Assembly (NCBI RefSeq): GCF_004323735.1
Contig: NZ_CP036455.1
Location: 4,459,101-4,523,100, forward strand
Length of the DNA: 64,000 nucleotides
Direction: 5' to 3'
Origin: Streptomonospora litoralis
Lineage (GTDB): Bacteria > Actinomycetota > Actinomycetes > Streptosporangiales > Streptosporangiaceae
A program made the position numbers and the translations under genes. The notes beneath the pieces are model-generated. The model was not told the origin of the DNA and made no database searches. It saw only the letters and a list, made by a program, of their open reading frames with translations. Positions 1 to 17,983 of this stretch are shown here, piece by piece; the first letter of the stretch is position 1, and every line of letters begins with the position of its first letter.

Positions 1-710
1 CCGGCCTCTTCCAGCCGTGCGGCGATACTGCCGATGTAGCGGGTGACGCCGGGTTTGACGGCGGCGTCGACGAGGGTCGTCATGGAGCGCTCGTACTCGC
101 GGTACTCGCGCAGCACGTCGGAGCTGAGGGACACGGTCGCAGCGGGGTGCTCGGCGCGCAGGATCTCGCGCAGCCGCCGCTCGTGCGCGGGGTCGGCGTA
201 GGCGTGCAGCAGGCAGACGCCGATGGTGTCGACGCCGCGGTCGCGGAACCAGCGGGCGGCCGCGGCGGCGCCCTCCTCCTCCAGGGGACGCAGTTCGGCG
301 CCGGTGTGGTCGAGCCGGCCGCCGACGGTGCGCACCAGGTCGGCGGGAACGATCCGCTCGGGCTTGATCCAGAAGTAGGAGTTGCCGTAGCCGTCGGGCA
401 CGGCCTGGCGGGCGATCTCCAGGATGAACTCGTAGCCCTCGGTGGTGATGAACCCGAGCCGGCCGGTCTTGCCCTCCAGCAGCAGATTGGTGGCCACTGT
501 GGTGCCGTGGGAGACGGCGCTGACCGCGGTGCCGCCACCGAGCAGGTCCAGCGCCTTGGCGACGCCGTCCATGAACCCGGCGGAGGGGTCGGCCGGGGTT
601 GAGGGTGTCTTGGTGGCCAGCAGTTCACCGGTGTCTTCGTCGAGCGCGACGACGTCGGTGAACGTGCCTCCCGTGTCGATCCCGATGCGGACCCTGCGCT
701 GCTCCGCCAT
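1..710 (-). CDS. HyuA-type hydantoinase/oxoprolinase subunit, N-terminal part
   Basis: Members of this family hydrolyse five-membered cyclic amides (hydantoins, 5-oxoproline) or, in related enzymes, carboxylate ketones, with ATP, usually with a HyuB partner. The protein begins with the nucleotide-binding signature IGIDTGGTFTDVV near residues 8-20, followed by SHGTTVATN near residue 70, both typical of the hydantoinase A N-terminal domain. The ATG at the right end is preceded by a purine-rich GGGGCGGG. The C-terminal two thirds lie outside the window, so the partner subunit cannot be seen. Transcription runs out of the window, away from the molybdenum hydroxylase and permease genes, which suggests a nitrogen-heterocycle role. 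The substrate is not predictable from this fragment. Confidence 0.85.
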   Translation of the reverse strand, partial: MAEQRRVRIGIDTGGTFTDVVALDEDTGELLATKTPSTPADPSAGFMDGVAKALDLLGGGTAVSAVSHGTTVATNLLLEGKTGRLGFITTEGYEFILEIARQAVPDGYGNSYFWIKPERIVPADLVRTVGGRLDHTGAELRPLEEEGAAAAARWFRDRGVDTIGVCLLHAYADPAHERRLREILRAEHPAATVSLSSDVLREYREYERSMTTLVDAAVKPGVTRYIGSIAARLEEA

Positions 711-915
711 TCACCCGCCCCTGCGTGTCGGCGACTCGCTTCGGCCGCCGCGCGGAGTCGCGGGGCCGCACTAGGGATTCAACTCGGCGGGAGGTGCTGG
801 TTAATCGGCAAGATCTGCCAACAGATGCGCGGTTTCTTCGTCGACGGCGCCACACGGGCCACGTGGCGCGGCCACTCGGGCCGCTGCGGAGGGGCTCGAC
901 GGCCTCGCGAACACA

Positions 916-943
916 CCCGGAGGGGCGCGCACGCCCCTCCGGG
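916..943 (-). terminator. Hairpin terminator candidate
   Basis: Perfect 12-bp stem (CCCGGAGGGGCG and its complement) around a 4-base loop, just downstream of the stop codon of the leftward remnant at 959. There is no clear T-tract, as is usual in actinomycetes. Confidence 0.6.
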
Positions 944-958
944 ATCGGCCGGGGGCGG

Positions 959-1248: not shown

Positions 1249-1272
1249 GCGGATGCGAATCGCGGCCGGGCG

Positions 1273-3588
1273 TCAGGACGCGGACTCGTCGAGTCGGGTG
1301 AGCTTGCCCCGGAAGCGGCCGACCACGGTCTCCAGGGCCGAGGAGAACGGGTGGTCGTGCACCATGTACGTCCAGGTCATCGTGGGCCGCTTGACTCCGA
1401 CGTCGGCTACGTCGATGGTGCCGTCCTCGTCCACCTCGGCCTCCGCGAAGGTCTCGGCGGCGCGGGCGCGGGCCTCGTCCAAGAAGCCCTTGAACGCGGG
1501 AACGGCGTCGCTGTTGAACTCGTCCAGCGGGTCGCGGCGGCCGAGGAAGCGCAGGTGGATGCCCTCGCGCAGCTCGGCCAGGTAGGCGTTGTGGTCGGTC
1601 CAGCCCCGGTCGAGGTGGTAGAGGGTGATCAGCCGCGCGGCCTTGGCGGTCTCCTCGGACCCGGCTGCCTCCACCAGATCGGCGTGGTGGGCCGGGCAGT
1701 CGACGCCGAGCTGGCGGTCGCCCAGGCCGTCGGCCAGCACCGCCTCGCGGTGCTCCAGCACGACGCTGCGCTGCACGTCGATCAGCTTGTTGTAGCGCCA
1801 GGTGTTGCGGTGCACCTCCAGCAGCTGGCCCTCGGAGACCCGCTGGGCGTGGTCGACCATGCGCAGCCAGCTCTCGTCGGTGATGGCGCCGTCGCCACCG
1901 GCCTCGTAACCGCGGGTCTCGGGCGCGTTGTTGGCCACCAGGTCGTCCTCGACGGAGACGAAGTAGACCGAGGCGCCGGGGTCGCCCTGACGGCCGGCGC
2001 GCCCGCGCAGCTGGTCGTCGAGGCGGCTGCTGGGGTAGCGGCCGTAGCCCATGACGTACAGGCCGCCCGTCTCGACCACGCGGTCGCGATCGGACATGTC
2101 GCTGCCGCCCAGCCGGATGTCGGTGCCGCGCCCGGCCATCTGGGTGGAGACCGTGATCGCGCCGTAGGTCCCGGCCTCGGCGATGATGGCGGCCTCGTCG
2201 GCGTCGTTCTTGGCGTTGAGGACGACGCAGTCCAGGCCGTCCTTGCCCAGCCGCTCGGCCAGCAGCTCGGACTCGGCGACGTCCTGGGTGCCGATGAGGA
2301 TCGGCCGGCCGGTGGCGTGCACCTCGGCGATCTCGTCGACGAGGGCGTCCTCCTTCTCCTCGCGCGTAGCGTAGAGGCGGGTGCCCTCGTCCTCGCGGAT
2401 GCACGGCTTGTTGGACGGGATGACCGCGACTTCGAGCTCGTAGAACTCCCGCAGCTGCTCGGCGACCGCCATGGCGGTGCCGGTCATGCCGCAGCGTGTG
2501 GGGTAGCGCAGCACGAGCGACTGCACCGTGATGGAGTCGAGGACCTCGCCGGTGTCGGAGACGTCGACCTTCTCCTTGGCCTCGACGGCGGCCTGCAGGC
2601 CGTCGGGCCAGCGCTGGAGCAGCGCGATGCGCCCGCGCGACTCGTTGATGATGCGCACCTCGCCGTCGCGGACCACGTAGTGCACGTCGCGCTGGAGCAG
2701 CGCGTGGGCGTGCAGCGCCAGGTTGACCCGCGGCAGCACGGAGGTGTCGTCCTCGTCGTAGAGGTCGACGCCGCCCAGCTCCTTCTCGACGTTGTCGATG
2801 CCGCTGTCGGTGAGCTGGACGTTGCGCCCCTCGGAGTCGATCTCGTAGTCGACGCCGGGGGTGAGGCGGCGCACGAGCTCGGCCATCTCCAGGTCGGCGT
2901 CGGTGCTCTCGGCCGCGCCCGCCAGCACCAGCGGCACGCGGGCCTCGTCGACCAGCACCGAGTCGGCCTCGTCGATCAGCGCGATCTTGGGCTCGGGCAC
3001 CACGCGGTCGGCGATGTCGGTGACCATGCGGTCACGCAGCACGTCGAAGCCGAGCTCGCTCACCGACGCGTAGGTGACGTCGGCGGAGTATGCCGTGCGG
3101 CGCTCCTCGCGCGTGGACTCCTCGCCGATCCACGCCACCGCGACGCCCAGCATGTCGTAGAGGGGCGCCATCCACTCGGCGTCGCGCCGGGCGAGGTAGT
3201 CGTTGACGCTGAGCACGTGCACGCGCTGCCCGCGCATGGCGAACCCGGCCGCCGCGAGCGCACCGGAGAGGGTCTTGCCCTCGCCGGTGGCCATCTCGGC
3301 GATGTGGCCGTCCAGCAGCGCCATGACCCCGAGCAGCTGCACGTCATAGGGGCGCTCGTCGAGGGTGCGGCGCGCCGCCTCGCGGCCGACGGCGCACAGC
3401 TCGACGAGGTCGTGCCGCTCATAGGGCAGATCGGCGCCACCCAGCTCGGTCGCCTTGTCCGTCAGCTCGGCGTCGCTGAGTTCGCGCAGGTCGGGCTCGC
3501 GTGCCTCGATGGATTCCAGAAGCTTGGTATAGGGCCGCAAATCCGCCGCGCCGGGTTTGCCCAACAGCCGGCGGACGCTATCAGCCAT
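1273..3588 (-). CDS. secA2: Accessory preprotein translocase ATPase SecA2
   Basis: Peripheral membrane ATPase that drives export of a subset of proteins through SecYEG, beside the housekeeping SecA. The 771-residue protein carries Walker A as MATGEGKT, Walker B as LIDEADS (DEAD box), the helicase-like motif QMAGRGTDIR and an RGRAGRQGDPG motif VI. It is shorter than SecA1 (about 900 residues) and lacks the C-terminal Cys-rich zinc/SecB-binding tail. The chosen ATG begins MADSVRRLLGK. An upstream extension to 3786 is open but Arg/Pro-rich and overlaps the neighbouring gene's end. No SecY2 or glycoprotein cluster accompanies it, so it probably uses the common SecY channel. Confidence 0.93.
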   Translation of the reverse strand: MADSVRRLLGKPGAADLRPYTKLLESIEAREPDLRELSDAELTDKATELGGADLPYERHDLVELCAVGREAARRTLDERPYDVQLLGVMALLDGHIAEMATGEGKTLSGALAAAGFAMRGQRVHVLSVNDYLARRDAEWMAPLYDMLGVAVAWIGEESTREERRTAYSADVTYASVSELGFDVLRDRMVTDIADRVVPEPKIALIDEADSVLVDEARVPLVLAGAAESTDADLEMAELVRRLTPGVDYEIDSEGRNVQLTDSGIDNVEKELGGVDLYDEDDTSVLPRVNLALHAHALLQRDVHYVVRDGEVRIINESRGRIALLQRWPDGLQAAVEAKEKVDVSDTGEVLDSITVQSLVLRYPTRCGMTGTAMAVAEQLREFYELEVAVIPSNKPCIREDEGTRLYATREEKEDALVDEIAEVHATGRPILIGTQDVAESELLAERLGKDGLDCVVLNAKNDADEAAIIAEAGTYGAITVSTQMAGRGTDIRLGGSDMSDRDRVVETGGLYVMGYGRYPSSRLDDQLRGRAGRQGDPGASVYFVSVEDDLVANNAPETRGYEAGGDGAITDESWLRMVDHAQRVSEGQLLEVHRNTWRYNKLIDVQRSVVLEHREAVLADGLGDRQLGVDCPAHHADLVEAAGSEETAKAARLITLYHLDRGWTDHNAYLAELREGIHLRFLGRRDPLDEFNSDAVPAFKGFLDEARARAAETFAEAEVDEDGTIDVADVGVKRPTMTWTYMVHDHPFSSALETVVGRFRGKLTRLDESAS

Positions 3589-3754
3589 TCGTCCGAACAC
3601 CACGCAAGGGTAACGCCGCCGCGCCCCTGTGAGTTCCATCCCAGTGGCACCGATCGCATCGGTTCCGCTTCGCTGGGCGATCGCGGCCCTTGCGCCTGGG
3701 GCGGGGCGGGCAGGTCTCACCCGTCGCGGCCGCACGCGGGCGCCACCGCGGCGC

Positions 3755-4721: not shown

Positions 4722-5381
4722 TCAGCGCGCGCGGCGTCCCGCCCAGGCGCCCACGAGGACGCCCGCCAGCGTGGCGGCGGCGCCGAACACCGCGCCGCGC
4801 ATGAAGGTACCGGAGTCTCCGCCGGGTGCGGCGGTGTTCGCGGGGCGGGTCGGAGCAGGCGCGGGGACGGCCGCAGCACCGGACTCGCCGGGGGCCGACA
4901 CCGGGCCCGACTGTTCGGGGATGGCCTGGCTCAGCGTGCCGCGCCCGGTGACCTCGTCGTCCAGTCGGCTCAGGAACTCCCCGGCCATCTTGCGGGCGAC
5001 GCCGGTGAGCATGCGCTGGCCCACCCCGCCGACCATGCCGCCCACGACGGCGTCGGCGTCGTAGGTCAGCTCGGTGGTGCCGTCGCCGAGGTCGGCCAGG
5101 CGCACCCCGATCTCGGCGGTGACCGTGCCCGGGGCGCCCGCGCCCTGGGCGTGCATCGTCAGCGACTCGGCGGGCTTGAGGTCGGCGAGGCGCACGTCGC
5201 CCTGGAAGGTGCCCTTGATCGAGCCGACGCCGGCGGTGACGGTGCCGCGGTACTCGTCGGGTCCGGTCTGCTCCAGCCGCTCGCAACCGGGGATCGCGCG
5301 GGCCAGCGCGTCGGGGTCGAGCATCCGGTCCCAGATCCGCTGGGCGGGTGCCTGCAGTGTGGCGCTGCCGGTGATCTTCAA
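4722..5381 (-). CDS. CoxG-like SRPBCC protein with C-terminal membrane anchor
   Basis: START/SRPBCC-fold protein related to carbon monoxide dehydrogenase subunit G, a family thought to help recruit or mature molybdenum hydroxylases at the membrane. About 145 residues of SRPBCC domain (WDRMLDPDALARAIPGCE, then a VVGGMVGGVGQRML stretch) are followed by a Pro/Ala-rich linker and a hydrophobic segment ending in WAGRRAR, as in membrane-anchored CoxG. The start is probably TTG. It overlaps the stop of the large-subunit gene as TTGA and is preceded by GAGGGAG, so translation is likely coupled. Last gene of the operon. Confidence 0.85.
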   Translation of the reverse strand: MKITGSATLQAPAQRIWDRMLDPDALARAIPGCERLEQTGPDEYRGTVTAGVGSIKGTFQGDVRLADLKPAESLTMHAQGAGAPGTVTAEIGVRLADLGDGTTELTYDADAVVGGMVGGVGQRMLTGVARKMAGEFLSRLDDEVTGRGTLSQAIPEQSGPVSAPGESGAAAVPAPAPTRPANTAAPGGDSGTFMRGAVFGAAATLAGVLVGAWAGRRAR

Positions 5382-7933
5382 CGGGACTCCCTCGCTGACG
5401 GTACGGATGCATCGGACGGGTGCGCAGGCGACGACGGCGCGGCTTCCTCGCCCGGGCCGGGCTCGGCGGCCGGCCCGGAGGGGTCGAGGGCGGCGGGCGC
5501 AACCGGCGCGGGCCGCTCGGGCACGGAGGGCACTCCGCCCGCGGCGTGGCGGCGCCGCAGCTCGAACAGCTCCGAGGGCGAGATGGGCATGCGGTCGATG
5601 CGGAACCCTTCGGCGTCCTCCACGGCCGCCGCCAGGGCGGCGGAGGCGGGGATGACCCCGGCCTCTCCGGCGCCCTTCACTCCCAGCGGGTTGAGCGGGC
5701 TGGGCGTCTGCATGTGGGCGATCTCGACCGCGGGTATCTCGCTGGCGTAGGGCATCAGGAAGTCCATCAGCGAGGCGTTGAGCAGCTGGCCGTCGGAGTC
5801 GTAGGCCATGCGCTCGTACAGCGCGCCGGCCACGCCCTGGGCCACGCCGCCGTGCACCTGCCCTTCCACGATGCGCGGATTGATGAGGTTGCCGCAGTCG
5901 TGCACCACGCAGTAGCGCAGGATGCGGATCTCGGCGGTGTCCGGATCGGTCTCGACGACGGCGGCATGCGCGCCGTTGGCGAAGGTGCACCGCAGCGGCG
6001 AGTGGTAGTCCAGCCCCTCCAGACCGGGGGTCTCGCCCTCGGCCACCGGCGGCTTGTCGTGGTCGGCGGCGCCGCTGAACTGGGTGGCGGCGGCCGAGGC
6101 CGCGTCGAAGGCGTAGCGCAGCGGGTTGGACAGCACCGCGAGGGTGCCGAGTTCGACGCCGTGCACGGGGCTGCCCTTGACCTGGATGCGCCCCTGGGCG
6201 AACTCCAGGTCGCCGGCGTCGGCCTCCAGCGCGTCGGCGGCGATCCGCAGCGCCTTCTCCTTGAGCCGCCGGGTGGCCAGCGCGACGGCGCTGCCGCTGG
6301 TGACAGCGCCGCGGGAGGCGAAGGTGCCCACCGAGTAGCCCATGCGCCGGGTGTCGCCGGTGGTCACCTCCACGTCGGAGAGGGGGATATCCAGTTCGTC
6401 GGCGACGATCTGGGCGAGCACGGTGCCGTGCCCCTGGCCCTGGCTGGTGAGGCCGGTGGCCACGCGGACCTTGCCGCTGGTCTCGACCTGCACGTGCCCG
6501 CCCTCGTAGGGGCCGGGCCCGGTGCCCTCGACGTAGCAGGCCACGCCGATGCCCACCCGTCGTCCCTCGCGGCGGGCGCGCTCGCGGTACTCGGCGAAGC
6601 CCGGCCAGTCCACCAGCTCGCCGATCATCCGCAGCATCTTGGGGTAGTCGCCGGAGTCGTAGATCAGCGGTCGGCCGTCCTGGAACAGCAGTCCCTGGTC
6701 GTAGGGCATCTCGGCGGGCCGGATGACGTTGGCGGCGCGTACCTGGAGCCGGTCCAGGCCGAGGTGGTCGGCGATGGCGTCCATGGTGCGCTCCATGGCG
6801 AAGACCCCTTGGGGCCGGCCCGCGCCGCGGTAGGGCGTGACGATGGCGGTGGTGGTGTAGAGGCTGCGGAACTCCACCCGGTAGGCGCCGGGCTTGTAGG
6901 GGCCCAGCAGCTGGGTGGAGGTCACGATGGGCACGATGACGCCGTAGGGCAGGTAGGCCCCGTTGTCGTGCAGGATGTCCACGTCCAGGCCGAGGAGGCG
7001 GCCGTCGTCGTCGAAGCCGACCCGGACCCGCTGGTGCTGCGCGCGCTCGTGGGCGGCCGCGACGAAGTGCTCGCGGCGGTCCTCGACCCACTTGACCTCG
7101 CGGCCCAGCACGCGGGCGGCCCAGGGCACCATGACCTCTTCGGGCCAGGGGTGCACGATTTTCACGCCGAACCCGCCGCCGACGTCGGGCACCACCACCT
7201 CGACCTGGCCCAGCGCCAGTTCCATCTTGGCGGCGACGGCCGCGCGCACGCCCGTGGAGGTCTGGGTGGAGGTGTAGACGCGCAGGCGGCCGTCGTCACT
7301 GCCGGTGGAGCTGGAGGCGGGCTCCCAGCGCGCGTAGACGCCGCGGCCCTCCAGCGGGGTGGCCGCCGAGCGCTCGATATCCCAGTCGAGCTCAAGGGTG
7401 TTGGGTGCGGCGTCGACGGCGGCGCGGGCGTCACCCACCTCCTGGACGAGGTGGGCGGCGACGTTGTCGGCCATGCCCTCGTGCACGGTGCGGTCCGCCG
7501 CGACCGCGGCGTCGATGCCGACGACGGCCTCGCCCACCTCGTAGTCGACGCGGATGCGGGCGGCGGCGTCCTCGGCCGTGTAGCGGTCGGCGGCCACCAC
7601 CATGGCCACCGGCTCGCCCACGTGGTGGACGTACTCGCGGGCCAGCGGGTAGGGCGTGCGCCCGTCGCGGATCGACGGGTGCGGGATCAGCAGGGGCAGC
7701 GGCTCGGCCATGGGGCCGGCCAGGTCCTCGTAGGTGTAGACGGCGATGATGCCCTCGACGTCGACGGCGTCCGCGGCGTCGATGTCGCGGATGCGGGCGC
7801 GGGCGTGCGGGCTGCGGACGAACGCTGCGGCGCACGCGCCGGCACCCAGGTCGTCCAGGAAGGCGCCGCGGCCGGCGACCAGGCGGGCGTCCTCGCTGCG
7901 CTGGACCGGGGCGCCGAACATGCGGGTGCTCAC
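5378..7933 (-). CDS. Molybdenum hydroxylase large subunit (form II CoxL / xanthine dehydrogenase family)
   Basis: Catalytic Mo-MCD-binding subunit of a heterotrimeric hydroxylase that adds oxygen from water to an aldehyde or N-heterocycle such as a purine. The 851-residue length fits the family. Residues 10-120 form the aldehyde oxidase a/b hammerhead domain. The active-site loop reads PYRGAGRP, the form II version, rather than the AYRCSFR of genuine aerobic CO dehydrogenase. The conserved C-terminal GVKGAGEAG carries the base-like Glu. It overlaps the genes on both sides by 4 bases. With a nucleobase permease, PucR and a hydantoinase nearby, a purine or related heterocycle is the likeliest substrate. 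CO oxidation is unlikely. Confidence 0.9.
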   Translation of the reverse strand: MSTRMFGAPVQRSEDARLVAGRGAFLDDLGAGACAAAFVRSPHARARIRDIDAADAVDVEGIIAVYTYEDLAGPMAEPLPLLIPHPSIRDGRTPYPLAREYVHHVGEPVAMVVAADRYTAEDAAARIRVDYEVGEAVVGIDAAVAADRTVHEGMADNVAAHLVQEVGDARAAVDAAPNTLELDWDIERSAATPLEGRGVYARWEPASSSTGSDDGRLRVYTSTQTSTGVRAAVAAKMELALGQVEVVVPDVGGGFGVKIVHPWPEEVMVPWAARVLGREVKWVEDRREHFVAAAHERAQHQRVRVGFDDDGRLLGLDVDILHDNGAYLPYGVIVPIVTSTQLLGPYKPGAYRVEFRSLYTTTAIVTPYRGAGRPQGVFAMERTMDAIADHLGLDRLQVRAANVIRPAEMPYDQGLLFQDGRPLIYDSGDYPKMLRMIGELVDWPGFAEYRERARREGRRVGIGVACYVEGTGPGPYEGGHVQVETSGKVRVATGLTSQGQGHGTVLAQIVADELDIPLSDVEVTTGDTRRMGYSVGTFASRGAVTSGSAVALATRRLKEKALRIAADALEADAGDLEFAQGRIQVKGSPVHGVELGTLAVLSNPLRYAFDAASAAATQFSGAADHDKPPVAEGETPGLEGLDYHSPLRCTFANGAHAAVVETDPDTAEIRILRYCVVHDCGNLINPRIVEGQVHGGVAQGVAGALYERMAYDSDGQLLNASLMDFLMPYASEIPAVEIAHMQTPSPLNPLGVKGAGEAGVIPASAALAAAVEDAEGFRIDRMPISPSELFELRRRHAAGGVPSVPERPAPVAPAALDPSGPAAEPGPGEEAAPSSPAHPSDASVPSARESR

Positions 7934-8517
7934 GGGCGGTCTCCTCGCGTCTGGGGTGCCTGCGGCCGGTGCGGTCCGCCCGCCTCGGCGGGGTCGGCGG
8001 GCGGCGCGGTCCCGCTCTTGGCGGCGGGGCCCTGCTCACGGGTGAGCTCCGCGGTGCGCTGCACGGCCGCGACGATGTTCTGGTATCCGGTGCAGCGGCA
8101 CAGATTGCCGGCCACGGCCTCCCGGGCGTCCTCCTCGGCGGGGTCGGGGTTGTCGCGCACGTAGGCGGCGACGAGGGTGAGGAACCCCGGGGTGCAGAAG
8201 CCGCACTGCAGCGCGTGGCACTCGGAGAACGCCTGCTGAACGGGGTGCGGGGTGCCGTCGGCCGCGGCCAGCCCTTCGACGGTGGTGATGTCGTCGTGCT
8301 GGGCGGCGCTGACCGCCAGCATCAGGCAGGAGCGCATCGGCTGCCCGTCGACGAGCACGGTGCATGCGCCGCAGACCCCGTGCTCGCAGCCGACGTGGGT
8401 TCCGGTGAGCCCCAGGTCGTGGCGCAGGCAGTCCGACAGCAGGCGGCGGGCGGGCACCCGGGCGCTGTACTGGATGCCGTTGACGCGCAGCCGGACGTCG
8501 TGCAGTTGCTCGGTCAT
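7930..8517 (-). CDS. Molybdenum hydroxylase 2Fe-2S subunit
   Basis: Electron-transfer subunit carrying two [2Fe-2S] clusters between the Mo site and FAD. The plant-ferredoxin-type cluster ligands are CEHGVCGACTVL plus a downstream SC. The second cluster motif is CGFCTPG, with CRCTGY further on. The 195-residue length includes about 35 extra C-terminal residues rich in Pro and Ala. The ATG overlaps the preceding gene's stop as ATGA, and the stop overlaps the ATG of the large subunit, so all three are translationally coupled. Confidence 0.95.
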   Translation of the reverse strand: MTEQLHDVRLRVNGIQYSARVPARRLLSDCLRHDLGLTGTHVGCEHGVCGACTVLVDGQPMRSCLMLAVSAAQHDDITTVEGLAAADGTPHPVQQAFSECHALQCGFCTPGFLTLVAAYVRDNPDPAEEDAREAVAGNLCRCTGYQNIVAAVQRTAELTREQGPAAKSGTAPPADPAEAGGPHRPQAPQTRGDRP

Positions 8518-9419
8518 CGGCTCGCTCCGGTGTCGGCGGGGGTCGGTGCGGTGGCGGCAGCGGCGCGGGCTGCGGCCTGGGCCAGGGCCCGCTCGGTGAG
8601 CACCCGCGCGAGGTGGCGGCGGTAGTCGGCGCCGGCGTGGATGTCGTCCTCGGGCTCGGTCGTGTCGGCGGCCTCTGCGGCGGCCGCGGCCAGGTCCACA
8701 GCCTCGGCGGGGCGCCCGGCCAGGTGGGCGGTCAGGTCGACCACGAGGGGTACGGGCGCCACCGAGATGAGGCAGCAGCGGGCCGTCGTGATGCGCCCGG
8801 CGGCGTCGAGGGCGACCGCGGCCGCCACGCCGCACAGCGCGTAGTCGCCGTGGCGGCGGGCGGTCTCGACGAAGGCGGTCCCGGTGCCGGGGCCCGGACG
8901 CGGAAAGCGCGCCGCCACCGCGATCTCGCCGCCGGCCAGGGCGTTGTCCATCGGCCCGGTCACGAACTCCGCGGCGGGAACCGTGCGGCCGCCCGCGGGC
9001 CCCCGCACCTCGACCTCGCCCTCCAGCAGCGCCAGCACGGCGGGCATCTCGCCAGAGGGGTCCGCATGGGCGATACTGCCGACACTCGTGCCGCGGTTGC
9101 GGATCACCGGGTGGGCCACCAGCCGCAGCCCCTGGCGCAGCAGGGGCACTGCCTCGGCGGCGGCGGTGTGGGCCTCCAGCGCCGAATGCCGCACGAGCGC
9201 GCCGACGCGGACCCCGGCGCCGTCGACCTCGATGCCGCCGAGCCCGGCGACCCGGTTGATGTCGACCAGGACGCCGGGGGCGGCCAGCCGCATGTTCAGC
9301 AGCGGGATGAGGCTCTGCCCGCCGGCCAGGACCTTGCCCTCCTCGCCCGCCTCGGCCAGCAGTGTCACGGCCTCGTCGAGTTCGGTGGGCGCGTGGTAGG
9401 CGAACGGCGGTGGCTTCAC
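8514..9419 (-). CDS. Molybdenum hydroxylase FAD-binding subunit (CoxM/XdhB-like)
   Basis: FAD subunit that passes electrons from the iron-sulfur protein to the final acceptor. The first FAD motif AGGQSLIPLLNMR lies near residue 33, and the second appears as NRGTSVGSIAHADPSGEMP near residue 110; both are hallmarks of CoxM-type flavoproteins. CO dehydrogenase medium C-terminal domain follows. At 301 residues it is slightly long through an Ala-rich tail. The ATG is preceded by AAAGGAGAACC, a strong ribosome site. First cistron of the hydroxylase set; a hairpin separates it from the permease upstream. Confidence 0.93.
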   Translation of the reverse strand: MKPPPFAYHAPTELDEAVTLLAEAGEEGKVLAGGQSLIPLLNMRLAAPGVLVDINRVAGLGGIEVDGAGVRVGALVRHSALEAHTAAAEAVPLLRQGLRLVAHPVIRNRGTSVGSIAHADPSGEMPAVLALLEGEVEVRGPAGGRTVPAAEFVTGPMDNALAGGEIAVAARFPRPGPGTGTAFVETARRHGDYALCGVAAAVALDAAGRITTARCCLISVAPVPLVVDLTAHLAGRPAEAVDLAAAAAEAADTTEPEDDIHAGADYRRHLARVLTERALAQAAARAAAATAPTPADTGASR

Positions 9420-9489: not shown

Positions 9490-9499
9490 TGCGCGCAGG

Positions 9500-10990
9500 T
9501 CAGGTGACCTGTCCTCCCCCTTCACGCCTTTCCTTCCCGGTTTCCGTGCCGACACCGCCGCTCGGCGCAGCGGTGTCGTCGCGGGTGTCGACACCGCTGC
9601 CCAGCACCACGCCGGCGCCGGAGTCGGAGGCGTCGTGCCCGTCCTCGATCCCGTCGGGCGCCGGCGCGGGCCGCATGCTCGCGGGCGCCAGGCGGTAGAG
9701 GACGTGGTAGCCGGCGAGGATGATGATGGTGCCCAGGGCGATGCCCTCCAGGGAGAAGCCCTCGGTGATATGCAGGCTGACCCCGCCGATGCCGGCGATC
9801 AGCCCCGCCGCGAGCGGGACCAGCACGATCGGGTTGCCGAAGTCGACGCGGTTCTCCACCCAGATCTTTGCCCCGAGCAGGCCGATCATGCCGTAGAGCA
9901 CCACGGTGATGCCGCCGAGGACGCCGGCGGGTGTGGCCGCGACCAGTTCGCCGAACTTGGGGCAGAGGCCGAACAGGATCGCCACCAGCGCGGCGACGTA
10001 GTAGGCGGCCGTGGAGTACACGCGGGTGGCGGCCATGACGCCGATGTTCTCGGCGTAGGTCGTGGTGGGCGAGCCGCCGACCGAGCTGGCGAGGGAGGTG
10101 GCCAGGCCGTCGGCGAAGATGGCGCGGCCCATGTAGGGGTTCAGGTCGTCGCCTGTCATCTCCTGGACGGCCTTGACGTGTCCGGCGTTCTCGGCGATCA
10201 GCGCGATCACGGCGGGCAAGGCGACCAGGATCGCCGAGGTCTCGAAAACGGGGGCGTGGAAGTCGGGCAGGCCGATCCACGCGGCGTCGCCCACGGCGCC
10301 GAGGTCGACCCGGGGCGCGGCGCCGCCGCCCTGGCCCTCGGGCAGCGGTGCCGCGCCGAAGGCCTGGTCGAAGACCCAGGACAGCACGAATCCGAAGACC
10401 AGGCCGAGCAGGATGGTGATGCGGCCCAGGAAGCCGCGCAGCAGGACCGTGGCCAGGATGACGAAGGCCATGGTGAGCAGGCCGACCCACTGGTCGAAGG
10501 GCCAGTAGTTCTCCGCGACGACCGGGGCGAGGTTGAACCCGATCAGCATGACGACCGCACCGGTGACCGCGGGCGGGAAGGCCGCGAGGACGGCGCGGGG
10601 GCCGAGCAGGTGGATGGCGACCCCGGATAGCGCCAACACGACGCCTGCGACCAGGATCGCGCCGGTGAGCACCGCCGGGTTCGCCCCCTCCGGGGAGATC
10701 ACCGCGGCCGCGGCGACGAAGGAGGCGCTGGTGCCGAGGTAGCTGGGTACCCGGCCCTGCACGATCAGCAGGAACAGGATTGTGGCCACGCCCGACATCA
10801 TGATCGCCAGGTTGGGATCCAGGCCCATGATGACGGGGAAGACGAACGTGGCGCCGAACATGGCGATGACGTGCTGGGCGCCCAAGCCCGCCGTCCGCCC
10901 CCAGGAGAGGCGCTCTTGGGGGCGGACGACTTCACCGGGGGGAGGGGCGCTGCCGTCGCCGTAGAGTTTCCACCGCAAGCCGAGGTTCAC
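9500..10990 (-). CDS. NCS2 family nucleobase (uracil/xanthine-type) permease
   Basis: Proton-coupled importer of purines or pyrimidines with the roughly 12-14 membrane segments of the NCS2 fold. Recognisable features are QHVIAMFGATFVFP near the N-terminus, the GGSPTTTYAENIG motif typical of UraA/PyrP-like carriers, and a TM10-like stretch. I chose the GTG that begins VNLGLRWKLYGDG because GGAGG sits 5 bases upstream. GTG at 11002 and TTG at 11104 give longer, hydrophilic Arg-rich extensions. The gene reads into the molybdenum hydroxylase genes, linking nucleobase uptake with oxidation. UraA-like versus xanthine specificity cannot be decided by eye. Confidence 0.9.
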   Translation of the reverse strand: MNLGLRWKLYGDGSAPPPGEVVRPQERLSWGRTAGLGAQHVIAMFGATFVFPVIMGLDPNLAIMMSGVATILFLLIVQGRVPSYLGTSASFVAAAAVISPEGANPAVLTGAILVAGVVLALSGVAIHLLGPRAVLAAFPPAVTGAVVMLIGFNLAPVVAENYWPFDQWVGLLTMAFVILATVLLRGFLGRITILLGLVFGFVLSWVFDQAFGAAPLPEGQGGGAAPRVDLGAVGDAAWIGLPDFHAPVFETSAILVALPAVIALIAENAGHVKAVQEMTGDDLNPYMGRAIFADGLATSLASSVGGSPTTTYAENIGVMAATRVYSTAAYYVAALVAILFGLCPKFGELVAATPAGVLGGITVVLYGMIGLLGAKIWVENRVDFGNPIVLVPLAAGLIAGIGGVSLHITEGFSLEGIALGTIIILAGYHVLYRLAPASMRPAPAPDGIEDGHDASDSGAGVVLGSGVDTRDDTAAPSGGVGTETGKERREGGGQVT

Positions 10991-11337
10991 TGGGGCCTCC
11001 ACCGTGACGTGTCCGTAGCGACCGGGGGCTCGGGCGCGCACCCGCCGGGCACGCGCCCGGGTCGGCGGGTCACCGTAAACGTGATCCAATTCACTTCCGG
11101 GCAACCTTAGAAGGCGGGCACGGGCTCGGCACGGGCGATATCTGCCAAAGGAGCGCCGATTCGTTGGCGATCTCCGACCCCGGCCGCATGTGCCCCATCA
11201 GTTCGGCACAACCATGTGACGCCTCCGTCGCCGAGCGGTTGCGCAGCGGTAACCGATCCCCCGCCCCTGCCTGCCCCGACCGCCCAGAGGGCGCCCGCCC
11301 GAGCACTGCCGATCCCCGCAGCACTTTACGCACCCTG

Positions 11338-12238: not shown

Positions 12239-13957
12239 TCAGCCGCGCAGGTCGCGCATGCGGACCACGCGCAGCGCCACCATCAGGTTGAGCCGCAGGT
12301 GCGGGTCGGTGCTGAAGGGGCCCAGCATGCGCTCCAGCTTGCCGATGCGGTAGCGCAGGGTGTTGTAGTGGAAGTGCAGCAGGCGCGCGGTCTCGGCGAC
12401 GTTGAGGTTGTTGTCGAGCAGCGTCTCCAGCGTGGCACGCAGGTCGTCGTGCTCCGGCGAACCGGTCCGCGCGAGCTCGCCGAGGGTCTCCTCGGTGAAG
12501 GACCGCAGCTCCGCGGTGTCGGGGATCTGGCTGAGCAGCCGGTAGACGCCCAGTTCGTCGAACTCGGCCACCGAACCCGGCCCGTTCATACGCCGGCCCA
12601 CGCGGGCGGCCTGGCGTGCCTGCTCGTAGGCGCGCGGCAGCTCGGCGGGACCGGCGGCCACCCGGCTGATACCCGTGGCGAAGGACCGTCGGCCACCGCC
12701 CCCGTCGCCGGCCACCTGGGCGATGACCGAACGCACCAGCCGTCCCGGCCCGGCCTCGCCTTCGCCGCCGGCGCCCATCAGCACGACCACCTCCTGGCTG
12801 TAGCCGACGACCGCCGCGCCGGGGTCGCGGTCGCGCACCACCATGCTCCAGGCGCCGGCGAACCGCTCGTGGGCGGGGCGCAGGTCGCCGGCGGTCGGCA
12901 CCTGCGTCGCGGCCTCGCCGTCGAGTTCGGCCACCGCCACGACCAGGGGCCGGTCGATGTCCCAGCCCAGGCTCGCGCAGTGGCGGATCGCGTGCCCGGG
13001 CTCGCCGGCGCGCCCCGCCAGCAGGTCGCGCAGGAAGTCGCCCTGGTACTTGCCCTCGACCGCGGCCACCGCCAGGTCGCGTGTGATGACCAGCGCCGCG
13101 GTGGCCGCGGCGCGCTCCAGCAGGTGCACGTCGGCCGGCTCGGCGCTGCGCCCGCGGGTGATGAGCACGACGCGGCCGTGGTCGAGGCTGCCGGCCAGGA
13201 CGGGCACCTGCACGACCCGCGGGTCCGCGTCGTCCAGCGCGCGCACGCCATGCTTGAAGTTCTCCACCTGGAAGCGGCCGCCGGCCGGGTCGAAGCACCG
13301 CGCATCGGCCAGCACGTCGGCGTCCATGCCGGAGCGGGCCAGCACGCGGCCGTCGGGGGTGGTGACCATGACGCTGCCGTCGAGCAACTCGGGCAGTTTC
13401 CCGGTGATGGCGGCCAGGCCGCCTCCGGCCAGGATCACGTCGACCAGCACCCGGTGCACCTCCTCGGCGCGGGCGAGAATGGCCGCCTGCCGGTCGACGA
13501 TGTCGGTGAGCAGCTGATTGAGGACGTCGTCGAAGGCCACCTCCTCGTCCAGCCGCAGCAGCGGAAGCCCGAGGGAGTCGGCGGTGCGCAGCACCTCGTC
13601 GGGCAGGGTGTCGACGTAGCGGCCCAGTTTGATGGCCACCGCCGCCAGGCCCCGGGCGTCGAGCTCGCGTACCAGGCCGGCCAGGTCCCCGGCGCTGCGC
13701 AGCGGGTAACCCGTGGTCAGCAGCATCTCGTCGGGTTTGACCCAGGGCAGGATGTCGGGGACCTCCATGACGTTGAGTCGGCGGATGACGCGGCCCAGGC
13801 CGCTCGCGCCGGCCAGCACCTCGGTTCCGGACAGGCTCGACAGGCTCAGGGCGTCGGCCACGGAGAGCCCGCGCGCCAACGTGCTCGCCGAATGCACCGG
13901 ATCGGCGCTCGGCAGATCCTGTCCAGAGCCGGCCCCATCGTTGGCAATGTTTTCCAT
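12239..13957 (-). CDS. PucR-family transcriptional regulator
   Basis: Regulator of the purine-catabolism activator family. It has an N-terminal PucR sensor domain (about residues 30-150, with VMEVPDILPWVKPDEMLLTT), a central GGDEF-like region and a C-terminal PucR helix-turn-helix with NLNVAETARLLHFHYNTLR near residue 520. Length 572 is normal. It is transcribed divergently from the DUF2877-FdrA-DUF1116 operon across 78 bases, the classical layout for a regulator and its target. Members respond to purine-degradation intermediates in Bacillus; the effector here is unknown. The ATG is in MENIANDG. Confidence 0.92.
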   Translation of the reverse strand: MENIANDGAGSGQDLPSADPVHSASTLARGLSVADALSLSSLSGTEVLAGASGLGRVIRRLNVMEVPDILPWVKPDEMLLTTGYPLRSAGDLAGLVRELDARGLAAVAIKLGRYVDTLPDEVLRTADSLGLPLLRLDEEVAFDDVLNQLLTDIVDRQAAILARAEEVHRVLVDVILAGGGLAAITGKLPELLDGSVMVTTPDGRVLARSGMDADVLADARCFDPAGGRFQVENFKHGVRALDDADPRVVQVPVLAGSLDHGRVVLITRGRSAEPADVHLLERAAATAALVITRDLAVAAVEGKYQGDFLRDLLAGRAGEPGHAIRHCASLGWDIDRPLVVAVAELDGEAATQVPTAGDLRPAHERFAGAWSMVVRDRDPGAAVVGYSQEVVVLMGAGGEGEAGPGRLVRSVIAQVAGDGGGGRRSFATGISRVAAGPAELPRAYEQARQAARVGRRMNGPGSVAEFDELGVYRLLSQIPDTAELRSFTEETLGELARTGSPEHDDLRATLETLLDNNLNVAETARLLHFHYNTLRYRIGKLERMLGPFSTDPHLRLNLMVALRVVRMRDLRG

Positions 13958-14035: not shown

Positions 14036-14968
14036 ATGGCAGCTCGGCCGCCGTCCGCCGCCGCACACGGCCGCGACGCGCCCGCGCATTCCGGCGCGCG
14101 AGACGACAGCTGGCCCGCTGCGGCCTCATCCGCGCTTTATGACATTGTGAGCGGCCCATTTCGGCCGTCGCGAATGCTGGGCGTGTCACGTCTGGCGGTC
14201 TACCTTGAAGTCGAGGGCCCGCACGAGGCGACGGTGATCGCTCTCCTGGCACGAGACGCCGTCCGGTTGCCCAACGGGCTGGTCCTCGTCGGCACGCAGA
14301 GCGTGGGGCCGTTCGCCGACGTCGCGGCCGCGACGTCGGTCCGCATCGGTCGATGCTCCGCGGTGTTCGACGGCCCCACCGGCCCGTGTACCGTCCGCGC
14401 GGGCCGGTGGTGGCGGCCGCCCGCGCCGCGCTCCCCCCTGACCCTGCGCGACACCGCCCGCGCCACCGCCGAACTCAGCCGCGCCCTCGGCGCAGCCGCC
14501 GGCGGCCTGCCCTCGTACGCCGCCGCCGCGCCGGAAGGCGACCTGGCCACCCCCTCCCGCGCCGACGACGCCTGCGCCCGGCTCATCGGCCGCGGCCCCG
14601 GCCTCACCCCCAGCGGCGACGACCTGGTCTGCGGTTACCTGCTCGCCGCCCGCCACCTCGGCGGCCCGCAGGCCGCAGCACCCCTGGCCGCCGCCGCCCA
14701 GCGGGCCGGGTCGGCCACCACGGCCCTGTCGGCGGCGCTGATCGGCCACGCCGCAGCGGGGCGGGCCTGCCCGGAGGCCGTCGCCCTGCTCGACGCCCTC
14801 TCGGGCCACGCCCCGGTCGCCCCCGCCCTGGCGACGCTGCGGGGCATCGGCCACACCTCCGGTACCGACCTGGCGCTGGGCCTGCTCGCGGGAGCCCGCG
14901 CGGCCCTGCGCCACCGCGGCGACCGACGCCCACGCACGCAACGTCCACGTACAGGGAGTGCCCCATGA
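14036..14968 (+). CDS. ylbF: DUF2877 protein (YlbF/AllH-like, oxamate carbamoyltransferase component)
   Basis: Homologue of E. coli YlbF (DUF2877), which together with FdrA and YlbE forms oxamate carbamoyltransferase in anaerobic allantoin use. The diagnostic stretch GPGLTPSGDDLVCGYL lies near residue 185, and a second conserved Ser/Thr-Gly stretch near the end reads GIGHTSGTDLALGLL. I chose the ATG preceded by GGGAGGAGGGG. The N-terminal 45 residues are low-complexity and may be non-conserved; an ATG at MLGVSRL is the alternative. The stop overlaps the fdrA start as ATGA. First gene of a three-gene operon facing pucR. Confidence 0.85.
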   Translation: MAARPPSAAAHGRDAPAHSGARDDSWPAAASSALYDIVSGPFRPSRMLGVSRLAVYLEVEGPHEATVIALLARDAVRLPNGLVLVGTQSVGPFADVAAATSVRIGRCSAVFDGPTGPCTVRAGRWWRPPAPRSPLTLRDTARATAELSRALGAAAGGLPSYAAAAPEGDLATPSRADDACARLIGRGPGLTPSGDDLVCGYLLAARHLGGPQAAAPLAAAAQRAGSATTALSAALIGHAAAGRACPEAVALLDALSGHAPVAPALATLRGIGHTSGTDLALGLLAGARAALRHRGDRRPRTQRPRTGSAP

Positions 14969-16458
14969 CCACGGAACCGGTGACCGCGACGCGTGTGGAA
15001 GTGCGCAAGGGCGCATACCGCGACTCGGTGGCCCTGATGCGGGTGACCCGCGAGGTCGCCGCCGTCGAGGGGGTCGAGGCGGCTTTGGTGGCCATGGCCA
15101 CCGAGCTGAACCTGGGCATCCTCGCCGACATGGGCGGTACCGCTCCGGACGGCACCGGTCCCGACGACCTGGTGATCGCGGTGCGTGCGCCCGAGGAGGC
15201 GGCCGCTTCGGCGGCGCTCGCCACCGCCGAGGCGGAACTGGCGGCGATGTCGGCGGGCGGTCACGGGGCCGCGCCCGCCGACGCGCCGCCGCGGACCCTG
15301 CGCACTGCCGCGCGCAGCGCCGAAGCCGAGGGCCGCCCGGCCACCCTGGCGCTGGTGTCGGTGCCGGGCCGCTACGCGGCCGCCGAAGCCTTCGATGCGC
15401 TGGAGGCCGGGCTGGACGTGCTCGTCTTCAGCGACAACGTGCCCGTCGAGCACGAGGTGGCACTGAAGCGCAGGGCAGAGGAGCTGGACCGACTCGTCAT
15501 GGGCCCCGACTGCGGCACCGCGATGGTGGGCGGAGCCGGGTTCGGTTTCGCCAACGCCGTGCGCCCCGGACCGGTGGGCGTCGTCGCGGCCTCGGGCACC
15601 GGCGCGCAGCAGGTGATGTGCCTGCTGGACGCCGCAGGGGCGGGCGTCAGCCACTGCCTGGGCGTCGGCGGGCGCGACCTGTCGGAGGCCGTCGGAGGCG
15701 TCTCGACCCGCAGAGCGCTGCGGATGCTCGACGAGGACCCCGCTACCGAGCGAATCGTGCTGGTCTCCAAGCCGCCCGCGCCGCGGGTCGCCGAGGAGGT
15801 CCGGCGCGAGGCCGAGCGGCTTTCCACGCCCGTGCACACCGTTCTCGTGGGCACCGGAGACTCCGACATCGCCGCGGCGGTCGCCGAGGTCGCCTCGGCC
15901 CTGGGCCGCGACGAGCCGCAGTGGCCGCGCTGGCTGCCGAAGAGCCCCTCTCCGCGGCGCACCGGGGCACTGCGCGGCCTGTTCTGCGGCGGCACGCTCG
16001 CCGGCGAGGCCGCCGCCGTGGCGACGCGCACACTGGGCCCGGTCGCCTCCAACACCGGCGCCGATCCCGTCGTAGCGGACACTCCCGGCCACCTGGTGAT
16101 CGACTTCGGCGACGACGCGTTCACCCTGGACCGGCCCCATCCCATGATCGACCCGGCCGCGCGCGCCGACCGCTTCGCCGCCGAGCTCGCCGACCCCGCC
16201 ACCGGCGCGGTCCTCGCCGATGTCGTCCTCGGCCACGGCGCCCACCCCGACCCGGCCGCCGGCCTGGCCGAGGCGCTGGAGGCCGCCGAAGCGGATCGGC
16301 CGCACGTCGTGATTTCGCTGTGCGGTGCCCTCGGCGACGCCCAGGGACTCGCCGATCAGGCCGAGCGGCTGCGCCGGGCCGGCGCCGAGGTCTACGCGGC
16401 CAACTCCGCCGCCGCCCGCCGCGCCGCGGATCTGGCCGCAGGCGGGGATCCGGCCTGA
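14965..16458 (+). CDS. fdrA: FdrA-family protein (AllF-like, oxamate carbamoyltransferase component)
   Basis: Acyl-CoA-synthetase-like protein of the FdrA family. It has an N-terminal Rossmann CoA-binding-like part (VEVRKGAYRDSVALMRVT; VFSDNVPVEHEVALKRRA) and a succinyl-CoA ligase-like second half with MGPDCGTAM, VAASGTGAQQVMCLLD and a C-terminal flavodoxin-like lobe. In E. coli the FdrA set carries out carbamoyl transfer from oxalurate, yielding oxamate and carbamoyl phosphate. Length 497 is slightly below the E. coli protein. Start ATG follows AGGGAG and overlaps the upstream stop. No carbamate kinase gene is seen downstream, unlike the E. coli locus. Confidence 0.88.
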   Translation: MTTEPVTATRVEVRKGAYRDSVALMRVTREVAAVEGVEAALVAMATELNLGILADMGGTAPDGTGPDDLVIAVRAPEEAAASAALATAEAELAAMSAGGHGAAPADAPPRTLRTAARSAEAEGRPATLALVSVPGRYAAAEAFDALEAGLDVLVFSDNVPVEHEVALKRRAEELDRLVMGPDCGTAMVGGAGFGFANAVRPGPVGVVAASGTGAQQVMCLLDAAGAGVSHCLGVGGRDLSEAVGGVSTRRALRMLDEDPATERIVLVSKPPAPRVAEEVRREAERLSTPVHTVLVGTGDSDIAAAVAEVASALGRDEPQWPRWLPKSPSPRRTGALRGLFCGGTLAGEAAAVATRTLGPVASNTGADPVVADTPGHLVIDFGDDAFTLDRPHPMIDPAARADRFAAELADPATGAVLADVVLGHGAHPDPAAGLAEALEAAEADRPHVVISLCGALGDAQGLADQAERLRRAGAEVYAANSAAARRAADLAAGGDPA

Positions 16459-16552
16459 TGGCGCCGGCTCCGGCGCCGCCCGCCCGCGAAGCTTCCCGAC
16501 CCCGCTGCCGACCGTCCCGCCCCCGGGGCGGACGTCTCGTGAAAGGTGACCG

Positions 16553-17983
16553 ATGAGCCCGTCCGGACTCCTCACCGAGGACCCCGTCGTCGTGGCCGCG
16601 GGCGCGCGGCTGCTCTCCGACGCACTGGCCGACCAGGCCGTGCCCGTCACCGACACCGACTTCCACCCGCCCCTTTCCGGCGCCGACGGCTCCGACAGCG
16701 CCGGCCGCCTGGTGCGGGTGCTGGCCGACCCGCGCCGCGCCGCAGCCAACGCCGAGGCGACCCGGCGGGTGCTGGCCGTGCGCCCCCGACTGGTGGACGT
16801 ACGCCCGGCCGGTGAGGCGCTGGGACTGGAGCCCGGCTCCTTCCTGCACGCCGGCCCGCCGGTCGACTGGGACGGCGCCTCGGGCCCGCTGCGCGGAGCG
16901 CTGATGGGGGCCATGGTCTTCGAGGGCCTCGCCGATACCCCCGAGGACGCCGAGGAGCGGCTGCGCCGCGGCGCGGCCGACCTGGAGCCGTGCCACCACC
17001 GCGGAGCCGTCGGCCCCATGGCCGGAGTCGTCAGCCCCTCGATGTGGGTCTTCGAGCTGGCCGACCCCGATACCGGCCGCCGGTCCTGGTGCTCGCTGAA
17101 CGAGGGCTTGGGCGCGGTGCTGCGCTACGGCGCCTACGGCCCCGACGTCATGGACCGCCTGCGCTGGATGACGCGGGTGCTGGGCCCGCTGCTGCGCGGC
17201 GCGGTACGCGCCCACGGCCCCATCGACATCGGCGCCATCCTCGCCCAGATGCTGCAGATGGGCGACGAAGGGCACAACCGAAACCGCTCCGGAACGCTGA
17301 TGCTGCTCCGCGCCCTGCTGCCCGACCTGCTCTCCGGCGGAGCACCGAGCAGCGACATCGCCGACGTCGCCGACTTCATCGGCGGCAACGACCACTTCTT
17401 CCTGAACCTGGCCATGCCCGCCGGCAAGCTGATGATGGACGCGGCCCGCGGCATCCCCGGTTCCACCGCGGTCGTTGCGATGGCACGCAACGGCACCGAG
17501 TTCGGCATCCAGGTGTCGGGATGCGGCGACCGGTGGTTCACCGCGCCCGCGCTCACGCCCGAGGGGCTGTTCCTGGGCTCGTTCGGCCCCGACGACGCCA
17601 ACCCCGACATCGGCGACTCCACCATCACCGAGACCTGCGGTATCGGCGGGTTCGCGATGGCCGCGGCTCCCGCGATCGTCCGCTTCGTCGGCGGCGACGC
17701 GTCGTTCGCGCTGCGCACGTCACGCAGCATGTACGAGATCACGCTCACCGAGAACCCCGCCTTCCAGCTGCCGATCCTGGACTTCCGGGGCGCGCCCACC
17801 GGCATCGACGTGACACGGGTGGTGCGGACCGGGATCCTGCCGCAGATCAACACCGGCATGGCCGGACGCCTCCCGGGAACCGGGCAGGTCGGCGCGGGCC
17901 TGGTCAATCCGCCCGCCGAATGCTTCACCGCGGCGCTGAGCGCCCTGGCAGAGGAGGCGCCTCCGCTGCCGCAGTCCGTGTAG
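16553..17983 (+). CDS. ylbE: DUF1116 protein (YlbE/AllG-like, oxamate carbamoyltransferase component)
   Basis: DUF1116 family, homologous to E. coli YlbE. Typical stretches are AMVFEGLADTPEDAEERL, then CHHRGAVGPMAGVVSPSMWV near residue 150, MGDEGHNRN near residue 240, and the C-terminal GNDHFFLN and TGVAMARNGTEFG-like region. Length 476 fits the family. The start follows GAAAGGTGACCG. It lies 94 bases behind fdrA in the same direction, completing the FdrA/YlbE/YlbF trio. The known family role is the carbamoyl-transfer complex with FdrA. Whether oxalurate or another ureide is the substrate in this organism is inference. Confidence 0.88.
   Translation: MSPSGLLTEDPVVVAAGARLLSDALADQAVPVTDTDFHPPLSGADGSDSAGRLVRVLADPRRAAANAEATRRVLAVRPRLVDVRPAGEALGLEPGSFLHAGPPVDWDGASGPLRGALMGAMVFEGLADTPEDAEERLRRGAADLEPCHHRGAVGPMAGVVSPSMWVFELADPDTGRRSWCSLNEGLGAVLRYGAYGPDVMDRLRWMTRVLGPLLRGAVRAHGPIDIGAILAQMLQMGDEGHNRNRSGTLMLLRALLPDLLSGGAPSSDIADVADFIGGNDHFFLNLAMPAGKLMMDAARGIPGSTAVVAMARNGTEFGIQVSGCGDRWFTAPALTPEGLFLGSFGPDDANPDIGDSTITETCGIGGFAMAAAPAIVRFVGGDASFALRTSRSMYEITLTENPAFQLPILDFRGAPTGIDVTRVVRTGILPQINTGMAGRLPGTGQVGAGLVNPPAECFTAALSALAEEAPPLPQSV

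Follow-up and report, generated by a model that had tools for sequence, protein, structure and literature searches.

The stretch of DNA examined here, hereafter the window, comprises 64,000 nucleotides of the 5.81 Mb genome of Streptomonospora litoralis (C1:4459101-4523100), the first 18 kb of which carry two gene divisions that face each other. The minus-strand division runs leftward through pucR, an NCS2 permease gene, the genes for the FAD, 2Fe-2S and Mo-binding subunits of a Mo hydroxylase, coxG, the genes for a small nucleotide-binding protein and SecA2, and hyuA, and the plus-strand division consists of allH-allF-allG, which encode relatives of the AllFGH carbamoyltransferase of Escherichia coli. 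The sequence to the left of base 1 was also fetched, and positions are counted so that 0 is the base immediately left of window base 1, a position x corresponding to 20000 + x on the fetched stretch L003. An earlier note, drawn from the letters of the window, had named part of HyuA, CoxG, the three hydroxylase subunits, the permease, PucR and the allH-allF-allG row, all of which are borne out by profile matches, and had read them as a purine or ureide pathway. In this article, the genes on both sides of the window edge are described, and their putative role in the oxidative degradation of pyrimidines is weighed against alternative readings.

Across the left edge, hyuA, hyuB, a carbamate kinase (CK) gene and a barbiturase gene (bar) form a contiguous unit in which all genes point leftward. 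The hyuA gene occupies 1..710 of the window on the minus strand (listed also as 3-710; PF05378, 155 bits on the window part) and runs on to -1497, giving a protein of 735 amino acids that scores 495.6 bits with the caprolactamase alpha model, far below the 1000-bit cut-off. It overlaps hyuB (-3383..-1494, minus strand; PF02538, 466.7 bits) by 4 bp, and hyuB overlaps the CK gene by another 4 bp if the GTG at -3380 is the CK start. The kinase, a member of the ArcC family encoded directly after hyuB, 3.4-4.3 kb left of base 1 (-4321..-3380, alternative start -3398, minus strand), scores 323.6 bits with the arcC model (cut-off 358, not reached) and 284.7 bits with PRK12352 (cut-off 266, passed), and shares 39% identity with E. 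coli AllK. The earlier statement that no carbamate kinase lies adjacent is therefore an artefact, because the window edge cut the unit; the leftward extension that the same note had called for located HyuB and CK beyond the edge and, in addition, bar, which lies 38 bp beyond CK at -5469..-4360 on the minus strand (L003 14531-15640; TIGR02714, 539.9 bits).

By sequence, the ring-opening enzyme encoded next to CK is a barbiturase (EC 3.5.2.1). It matches the solved Rhodococcus erythropolis enzyme (5hwe) with 582 bits and 270 of 369 positions identical (73%), compared with 325 bits for the best cyanuric acid hydrolase. Five positions that separate barbiturases from cyanuric acid hydrolases are described in the accessible part of PMC3758960, the barbiturase signature being Asn, His, Lys, Val and Ser/Ala at AtzD positions 195, 321, 325, 345 and 346; the reference R. 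erythropolis barbiturase has Asn194, His324, Lys328, Val348 and Ser349, agreeing with the text available from that paper, and the S. litoralis protein carries N-H-K-V-A, which is barbiturase-like at all five. Scanning named genomes for relatives of the barbiturase supplied the best 80 of at least 562 stretches encoding such a relative (the named loci), and the 92 rows composed of the reference, these 80 loci and 11 composites including that of S. litoralis comprise 77 NHKVS, 13 NHKVA and 2 cut off by the stretch end. The lack of one active-site Arg in the barbiturase subgroup is also mentioned in the available portion of PMC4051656.

The Mo-binding large subunit, XdhA (5378..7933, minus strand; PF20256, 275 bits; PF02738, 244 bits), is encoded together with the 2Fe-2S subunit (7930..8517, minus strand; PF01799, 105 bits), the FAD subunit (8514..9419, minus strand; PF00941, 147.3 bits) and CoxG (219 amino acids; 4722..5381, minus strand, the start being set from comparison with the loci of relatives; PF06240, 93.5 bits). 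The nearest solved structures of the hydroxylase are quinoline 2-oxidoreductase and a hydroxypseudooxynicotine dehydrogenase. In the alignment, the active-site loop falls at PYRGAGR, with the aligned residues YRGAGR standing opposite YRCSFR of carbon monoxide (CO) dehydrogenase and containing no Cys; AYRVEFR had been considered as this loop and was rejected on the same alignment. The YRGAGR loop is taken here to be the mark of "form II", and the Cys of YRCSFR is presumably the active-site Cys of aerobic CO dehydrogenase (form I CoxL). The enzyme class is right for the oxidation of uracil or thymine and the linkage to the cluster is conserved, making XdhA a candidate uracil/thymine dehydrogenase. 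Genes for a hydroxylase maturation set (MobA-like, XdhC/CoxI, CoxE-type VWA and AAA proteins) lie near allG or the barbiturase gene at L083, L086, L128 and L134.

The NCS2 permease (9500..10990, longer reading from 11104, minus strand) is, by sequence, closer to uracil than to purine permeases of this family, scoring 207 bits against the uracil permease structure 8omz and 44 bits against a uric acid-xanthine permease, and 386, 266 and 152 bits with the RutG, UraA and xanthine pbuX models, respectively, every one of these below its cut-off. Two Glu-containing stretches aligned with UraA, which we assume to bind the substrate, are retained. Automatic names would instead assign the cluster to cyanuric acid or carbon monoxide, as NF052395 (cyanuric acid amidohydrolase) captures the barbiturase with 479.5 bits (cut-off 360) and NF040766 labels the Mo subunit an aerobic CO dehydrogenase of group 5 with 1422 bits (cut-off 950). 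Such a role is hardly credible and was set aside on the five-position barbiturase signature and the Cys-less Mo loop, with the uracil-type permease likewise speaking against it; the two names represent a probable misnaming, as judged from sequence features, that is likely to reach many actinomycete genomes.

In the opposite division, allH (14036..14968, plus strand; start uncertain, 14036 or 14174), allF, also called fdrA (14965..16458, plus strand, 497 amino acids, with a 4-bp overlap with allH), and allG (16553..17983, plus strand, 476 amino acids) encode in one row a PF11392 protein (86.7 bits), a PF00549 protein with FdrA similarity (100 bits) and a PF06545 protein (308 bits), DUF2877 and DUF1116 now being named AllH and AllG in Pfam. 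With the FdrA model PRK06091, the allF product scores 385 bits, below the cut-off of 433. Identity to the E. coli proteins amounts to 37% for AllF, 48% over 409 positions for AllG and 38% for AllH over 107 positions only. Near-invariant alignment columns, E. coli included, number 103 in AllF, 134 in AllG and 25 in AllH, and a further 54 AllG columns are fixed within the cluster yet different in E. coli, which fits either a changed substrate or plain divergence.

The conservation of this arrangement was assessed in 198 genomes, all of them kin of the cluster-bearing S. litoralis, and the p-values given below ignore relatedness. AllG was found in 96 of them, and 47 of 60 stretches fetched around AllG from these relatives carry a cluster-type XdhA (60% identity or more), mostly with the same gene order; the neighbourhood of XdhA and AllG is more than chance. 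The left side was fetched as well for 20 relatives, and the resulting 21 loci, including that of S. litoralis, contain XdhA in 21, CoxG and NCS2 in 20 each, HyuA and PucR in 19 each, HyuB in 18, CK in 12 and barbiturase in 11, many of the CK and barbiturase misses arising where the fetched stretch stops before their place. The comparison of gene order within the Nocardiopsaceae proposed earlier thus finds the cluster conserved in relatives, but widespread in the class rather than special to that family.

AllG and the barbiturase family are present together in 88 of the 198 genomes, AllG only in 8, barbiturase only in 8 and neither in 94 (Fisher p 1.9e-36), one of the 88, G145, resting on a weak match below cut-off. 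The link of AllG to allantoinase, which exceeds its cut-off in 114 of the 198 genomes, is weaker (75/96 AllG genomes versus 39/102 others, p 1.3e-8). Both AllG and barbiturase could be placed in 87 genomes, being on the same contig in 51 (within 60 kb in 44 and within 110 kb in 49) and on separate contigs in 36, mostly drafts. CK ends 15-153 bp before the barbiturase gene in 73 of the 80 named loci; those without CK beside barbiturase are L119-L122 and L143 (Rhodococcus/Rhodococcoides), L134 and L195.

In a tree of 82 AllG rows, a branch with 100/99 support separates 57 rows labelled cluster type, contributed by 54 of the 60 stretches around AllG together with the window, L128 and L138, from E. 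coli AllG and 24 others; on the E. coli side, the mutual order is unsure because several rows have long branches. The second, fragmentary AllG of G119 was left out of the tree. For seven of the 57 cluster-type rows (L050, L063, L064, L071, L077, L083 and L086), the sequence fetched contains no XdhA. The barbiturase family is present in 54/54 relatives contributing cluster-type rows, and all eight AllG-only genomes are represented in the tree by AllG rows that lie without exception on the non-cluster side. At L096 and L203, distant AllG genes adjoin a different Mo hydroxylase set, the large subunit of which is 36-37% identical to that of S. litoralis, an arrangement that hints at a further pathway combining AllFGH and a Mo hydroxylase.

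These distributions bear on an alternative in which AllHFG is an oxalurate (oxamate) carbamoyltransferase for purine or ureide breakdown that merely shares CK and the regulator with a neighbouring pyrimidine pathway. The near-invariant columns common to E. coli, the correlation of AllG with allantoinase and the presence in the S. litoralis genome of three full-length genes and one fragment of the Ldh_2 family, to which AllD belongs, are compatible with it, yet it appears unlikely, since genome-wide searches in S. litoralis found no uricase and no allantoinase reaching cut-off, the latter being absent also from 21 of the 96 AllG genomes, the link of AllG to barbiturase is far tighter, also at the level of AllG groups, and E. 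coli AllG falls outside the cluster group. Purine or oxalurate degradation was therefore set aside as the leading interpretation: a pyrimidine pathway fits, and a purine or allantoin pathway does not, because the cluster combines a barbiturase as ring opener with a uracil-like permease, and the genome lacks uricase and an above-cut-off allantoinase. The earlier note was right that no allantoinase lies adjacent, and its proposal that oxidation, ring opening and carbamoyl transfer form one pathway survives in outline, with the three steps looking joined and AllFGH as the key part; its purine/ureide substrate class is probably wrong.

The oxidative route described for R. erythropolis leads from uracil through barbiturate and ureidomalonate to malonate and urea (Soong et al. 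2001, 2002, as cited in the available passages of PMC3758960 and PMC3961730). The barbiturase of R. erythropolis NBRC 15567 is identical to the 5hwe sequence over 369 amino acids, and genes for NCS2, Mo hydroxylase subunits, CoxG, HyuA and PucR surround it. AllG is present in 46 of the 50 genomes searched among the 80 named, the four without it being those of L119-L122, while R. koreensis (L143) has two AllG proteins (L199 and L200, 251 and 245 bits), both outside the cluster group. In all five of these Rhodococcus-type loci, an amidase gene (PF01425) directly follows the barbiturase gene, its product being 76-100% identical to the L119 amidase, compared with no amidase above 43% identity elsewhere in the named loci, and no CK was found on the five fetched stretches, which extend no further than 10 kb on either side. 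The step after barbiturase therefore seems to be swapped, with an amidase in Rhodococcus and AllHFG plus CK at nearly all other loci. The amidase-signature gene at L119:11233-12726 is a candidate ureidomalonase; no paper naming a ureidomalonase gene was found in the accessible open-access literature.

A further alternative holds that an amidase acting as ureidomalonase yields urea and malonate in S. litoralis too, and that AllHFG and CK use another N-carbamoyl compound, for example a HyuAB product from a hydantoin-like ring. The placement of hyuAB in line with CK agrees with this, as do amidases of the PRK07486 subfamily, to which the Rhodococcus enzymes belong (709-729 bits): one is encoded above cut-off, and away from the cluster, in S. 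litoralis as well as in G001, G004, G015, G028 and G058. The S. litoralis amidase would be a candidate for the hydrolysis of malonamate and equally a rival ureidomalonase; one TGA is reported within its matched stretch. We nevertheless regard this alternative as quite improbable, given that S. litoralis has no urease in a genome-wide search, so that urea would be lost as nitrogen, that hyuA stands beside coxG also in the AllG-less R. erythropolis, and that the Rhodococcus-type amidase (76% identity or more) occurs at no other named locus. The absence of urease was also considered as a general reason for AllFGH, in line with the proposal, in the available text of PMC11326118, that AllFGH is the answer of urease-free genomes among enterics. 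In the named set, urease is present in 5/5 Rhodococcus-type genomes versus 9/45 others (p 0.0009, within one lineage), but this explanation was dropped, as it fits S. litoralis and the named set and fails in the wider sample.

Regulation may also join the two divisions. PucR (540 amino acids; 12239..13861, longer reading from 13957, minus strand; PF07905, 111.5 bits; PF13556, 66.8 bits) is encoded next to allH, and the promoters share neither exact dyads nor 9-mers. The word TTGGCA, which was chosen on these data by testing 6-mers (318 out of 2080 passing the count filter) and then checked on the named loci, is found upstream of pucR in 17/19, hyuA in 9/19 and NCS2 in 9/21 cases, relative to 11 occurrences among 505 other upstream regions. 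At the named loci, the word precedes hyuA in 12/33 and CK in 25/73 cases, compared with 29 of 800 random stretches, and its occurrences before barbiturase (5/80) and hyuB (4/44) are not clearly over background. Extended to TTGGCAN7CCNT, the site occurs almost exclusively before pucR (16/19, versus 0/19 for hyuA and 0/21 for NCS2). When the dyad TTGGCA-N-TGCC(A/G)A was scanned in the named loci at spacings 4-6, only spacing 5 gave matches (18 on both strands), and the candidate operator upstream of hyuA in S. litoralis (807..821, minus strand) has this form, TTGGCA-N5-TGCCGA. The pattern TTGGCAN7CC occurs four times in the 104 kb around the S. litoralis locus, three of these being this hyuA site and the candidate operators upstream of NCS2 (11134..11148, minus strand) and in the pucR/allH gap (13941..13955, plus strand); in the window alone, it is weakly above chance (4 versus 1.37 expected, with 3 of 100 shuffles as high). 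With TTGGCA standing before three transcription units, the two divisions may be regulated jointly, and PucR probably controls the units through these candidate sites, its binding there being inferred.

Taken together, the cluster very probably serves the oxidative degradation of pyrimidines, with uracil as the proposed substrate. Gene identities, the barbiturase signature, the uracil-type permease, conservation, co-occurrence and the Rhodococcus contrast can be read from the sequence, and every reaction is inferred, most of all the action of AllHFG on ureidomalonate. Uracil would enter through the NCS2 permease and be oxidized to barbiturate by the three-subunit Mo hydroxylase, after which barbiturase would open the ring to give ureidomalonate. 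AllH-AllF-AllG would then convert ureidomalonate and phosphate into malonamate and carbamoyl phosphate, from which CK would generate ATP from ADP, while the carbamate would break down to CO2 and ammonia; an amidase encoded elsewhere, or at the cluster in some relatives, would hydrolyze malonamate to malonate, and PucR would govern the units through the TTGGCA sites. It is likely that AllHFG acts on ureidomalonate in this way, in concert with CK. Oxalurate and ureidomalonate are both N-acylureas with a terminal carboxylate, one CH2 apart, and the E. coli enzyme interconverts oxalurate plus phosphate and oxamate plus carbamoyl phosphate, according to the portion of PMC11326118 available. HyuAB has no firm assignment, and a role of it in opening the 5-methylbarbiturate ring (from thymine) is a doubtful guess. 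With moderate confidence, the full proposal is that an AllFGH lineage became a ureidomalonate carbamoyltransferase, providing aerobic actinomycetes with an ATP-yielding, urea-free oxidative pyrimidine route that replaces ureidomalonase, and that "CO dehydrogenase group 5" is a uracil/thymine dehydrogenase.

Several observations weigh against this proposal. The biochemistry of AllFGH on record, as far as the accessible part of PMC11326118 goes, concerns oxalurate and oxamate. All 198 genomes are kin of one having the cluster, a kinship that the p-values ignore, and the Rhodococcus contrast, coming from a single lineage, amounts in effect to one event. The hyuA gene beside coxG in the AllG-less R. 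erythropolis indicates that HyuAB is not tied to AllHFG, and the unlinked PRK07486-type amidase of S. litoralis (C1:4236593-4238011, 546.8 bits) means that a ureidomalonase could still act there. L134 has AllG yet no CK beside barbiturase, and, of the eight barbiturase-only genomes, four keep CK beside barbiturase and none carries the Rhodococcus-type amidase on its fetched stretch (0/8); these genomes reflect draft gaps or CK without AllHFG and are uninformative on replacement by an amidase. In the wider sample, urease is present in 66/96 AllG genomes versus 45/102 others.

At the loci of some relatives lie genes whose products, to judge from their families, could act on malonate or malonamate, including a CaiB-type CoA-transferase at 48/80 named loci, a carboxyltransferase related to AccA/AccD and malonate decarboxylase subunits at 17/80, and an amidase-signature or nitrilase-type amidase beside coxG in some relatives; none of these candidates lies at the S. 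litoralis locus. Other neighbouring genes were compared in the 21 genomes. The accessory SecA2 and small nucleotide-binding protein (PF03029) genes between coxG and hyuA (1273-4489) occur in 6/21, the SecA2 matching the mycobacterial-type model TIGR04221 with 1062 bits and neither protein having an apparent role in the pathway, and an LPMO10 gene between NCS2 and pucR (11516-12154) occurs in 3/21, in the own genus only; on these counts, both insertions look like passengers. A histidyl-tRNA-synthetase-like protein (PF13393) is encoded at 18109-19431, downstream of allG, in 6/21.

Three known systems offer comparisons. Barbiturase has been characterized in R. erythropolis, where the urea-forming route is described (PMC3758960 and PMC3961730, in the passages available), and the likeness extends from the orthologous barbiturase to the NCS2, Mo hydroxylase, CoxG, HyuA and PucR genes around it; the two differ in that R. 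erythropolis has an amidase beside barbiturase and lacks both CK, as far as the fetched stretch extends, and AllG, anywhere in its genome, whereas S. litoralis has CK and AllHFG in place of the amidase. With the E. coli AllFGH oxamic transcarbamylase and AllK, as presented in the available part of PMC11326118, the cluster shares three homologous subunits in a row, a carbamate kinase and, presumably, action on an N-acylurea, but it differs in the order H-F-G, in the location of CK in the other operon of the cluster, in the lack of allantoin genes, in the separate AllG group, in its occurrence in aerobic actinomycetes and in the proposed substrate, ureidomalonate. The nitrifier allFGHK genes beside biuret/triuret genes (PMC12625717, in the passages seen) likewise combine AllFGH and a carbamate kinase away from allantoin genes, but sit with isochorismatase-type hydrolases, and those passages mention neither barbiturase nor a Mo hydroxylase. 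No open-access paper linking AllFGH to barbiturase or pyrimidines, or naming a uracil dehydrogenase gene, was found in the literature accessible.

The oxidative pyrimidine pathway is called rare in the accessible text of PMC3758960, with AtzD/Bar homologues in 3% of 6423 surveyed genomes, in contrast to the barbiturase family being present in 96/198 kin of S. litoralis. Rhodococcus and the other actinomycetes form a ready-made comparison. If the proposal is true, it would supply gene candidates for uracil/thymine dehydrogenase and for the reaction that follows barbiturase, and automatic names such as CO dehydrogenase, cyanuric acid hydrolase and FdrA acyl-CoA synthetase would be masking a uracil pathway. 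It would also add a second substrate to the AllFGH family and, in aerobes, couple its use to substrate-level phosphorylation, so that removal of the carbamoyl group would bring a small energy gain at the point at which the pathway in its known form releases urea.

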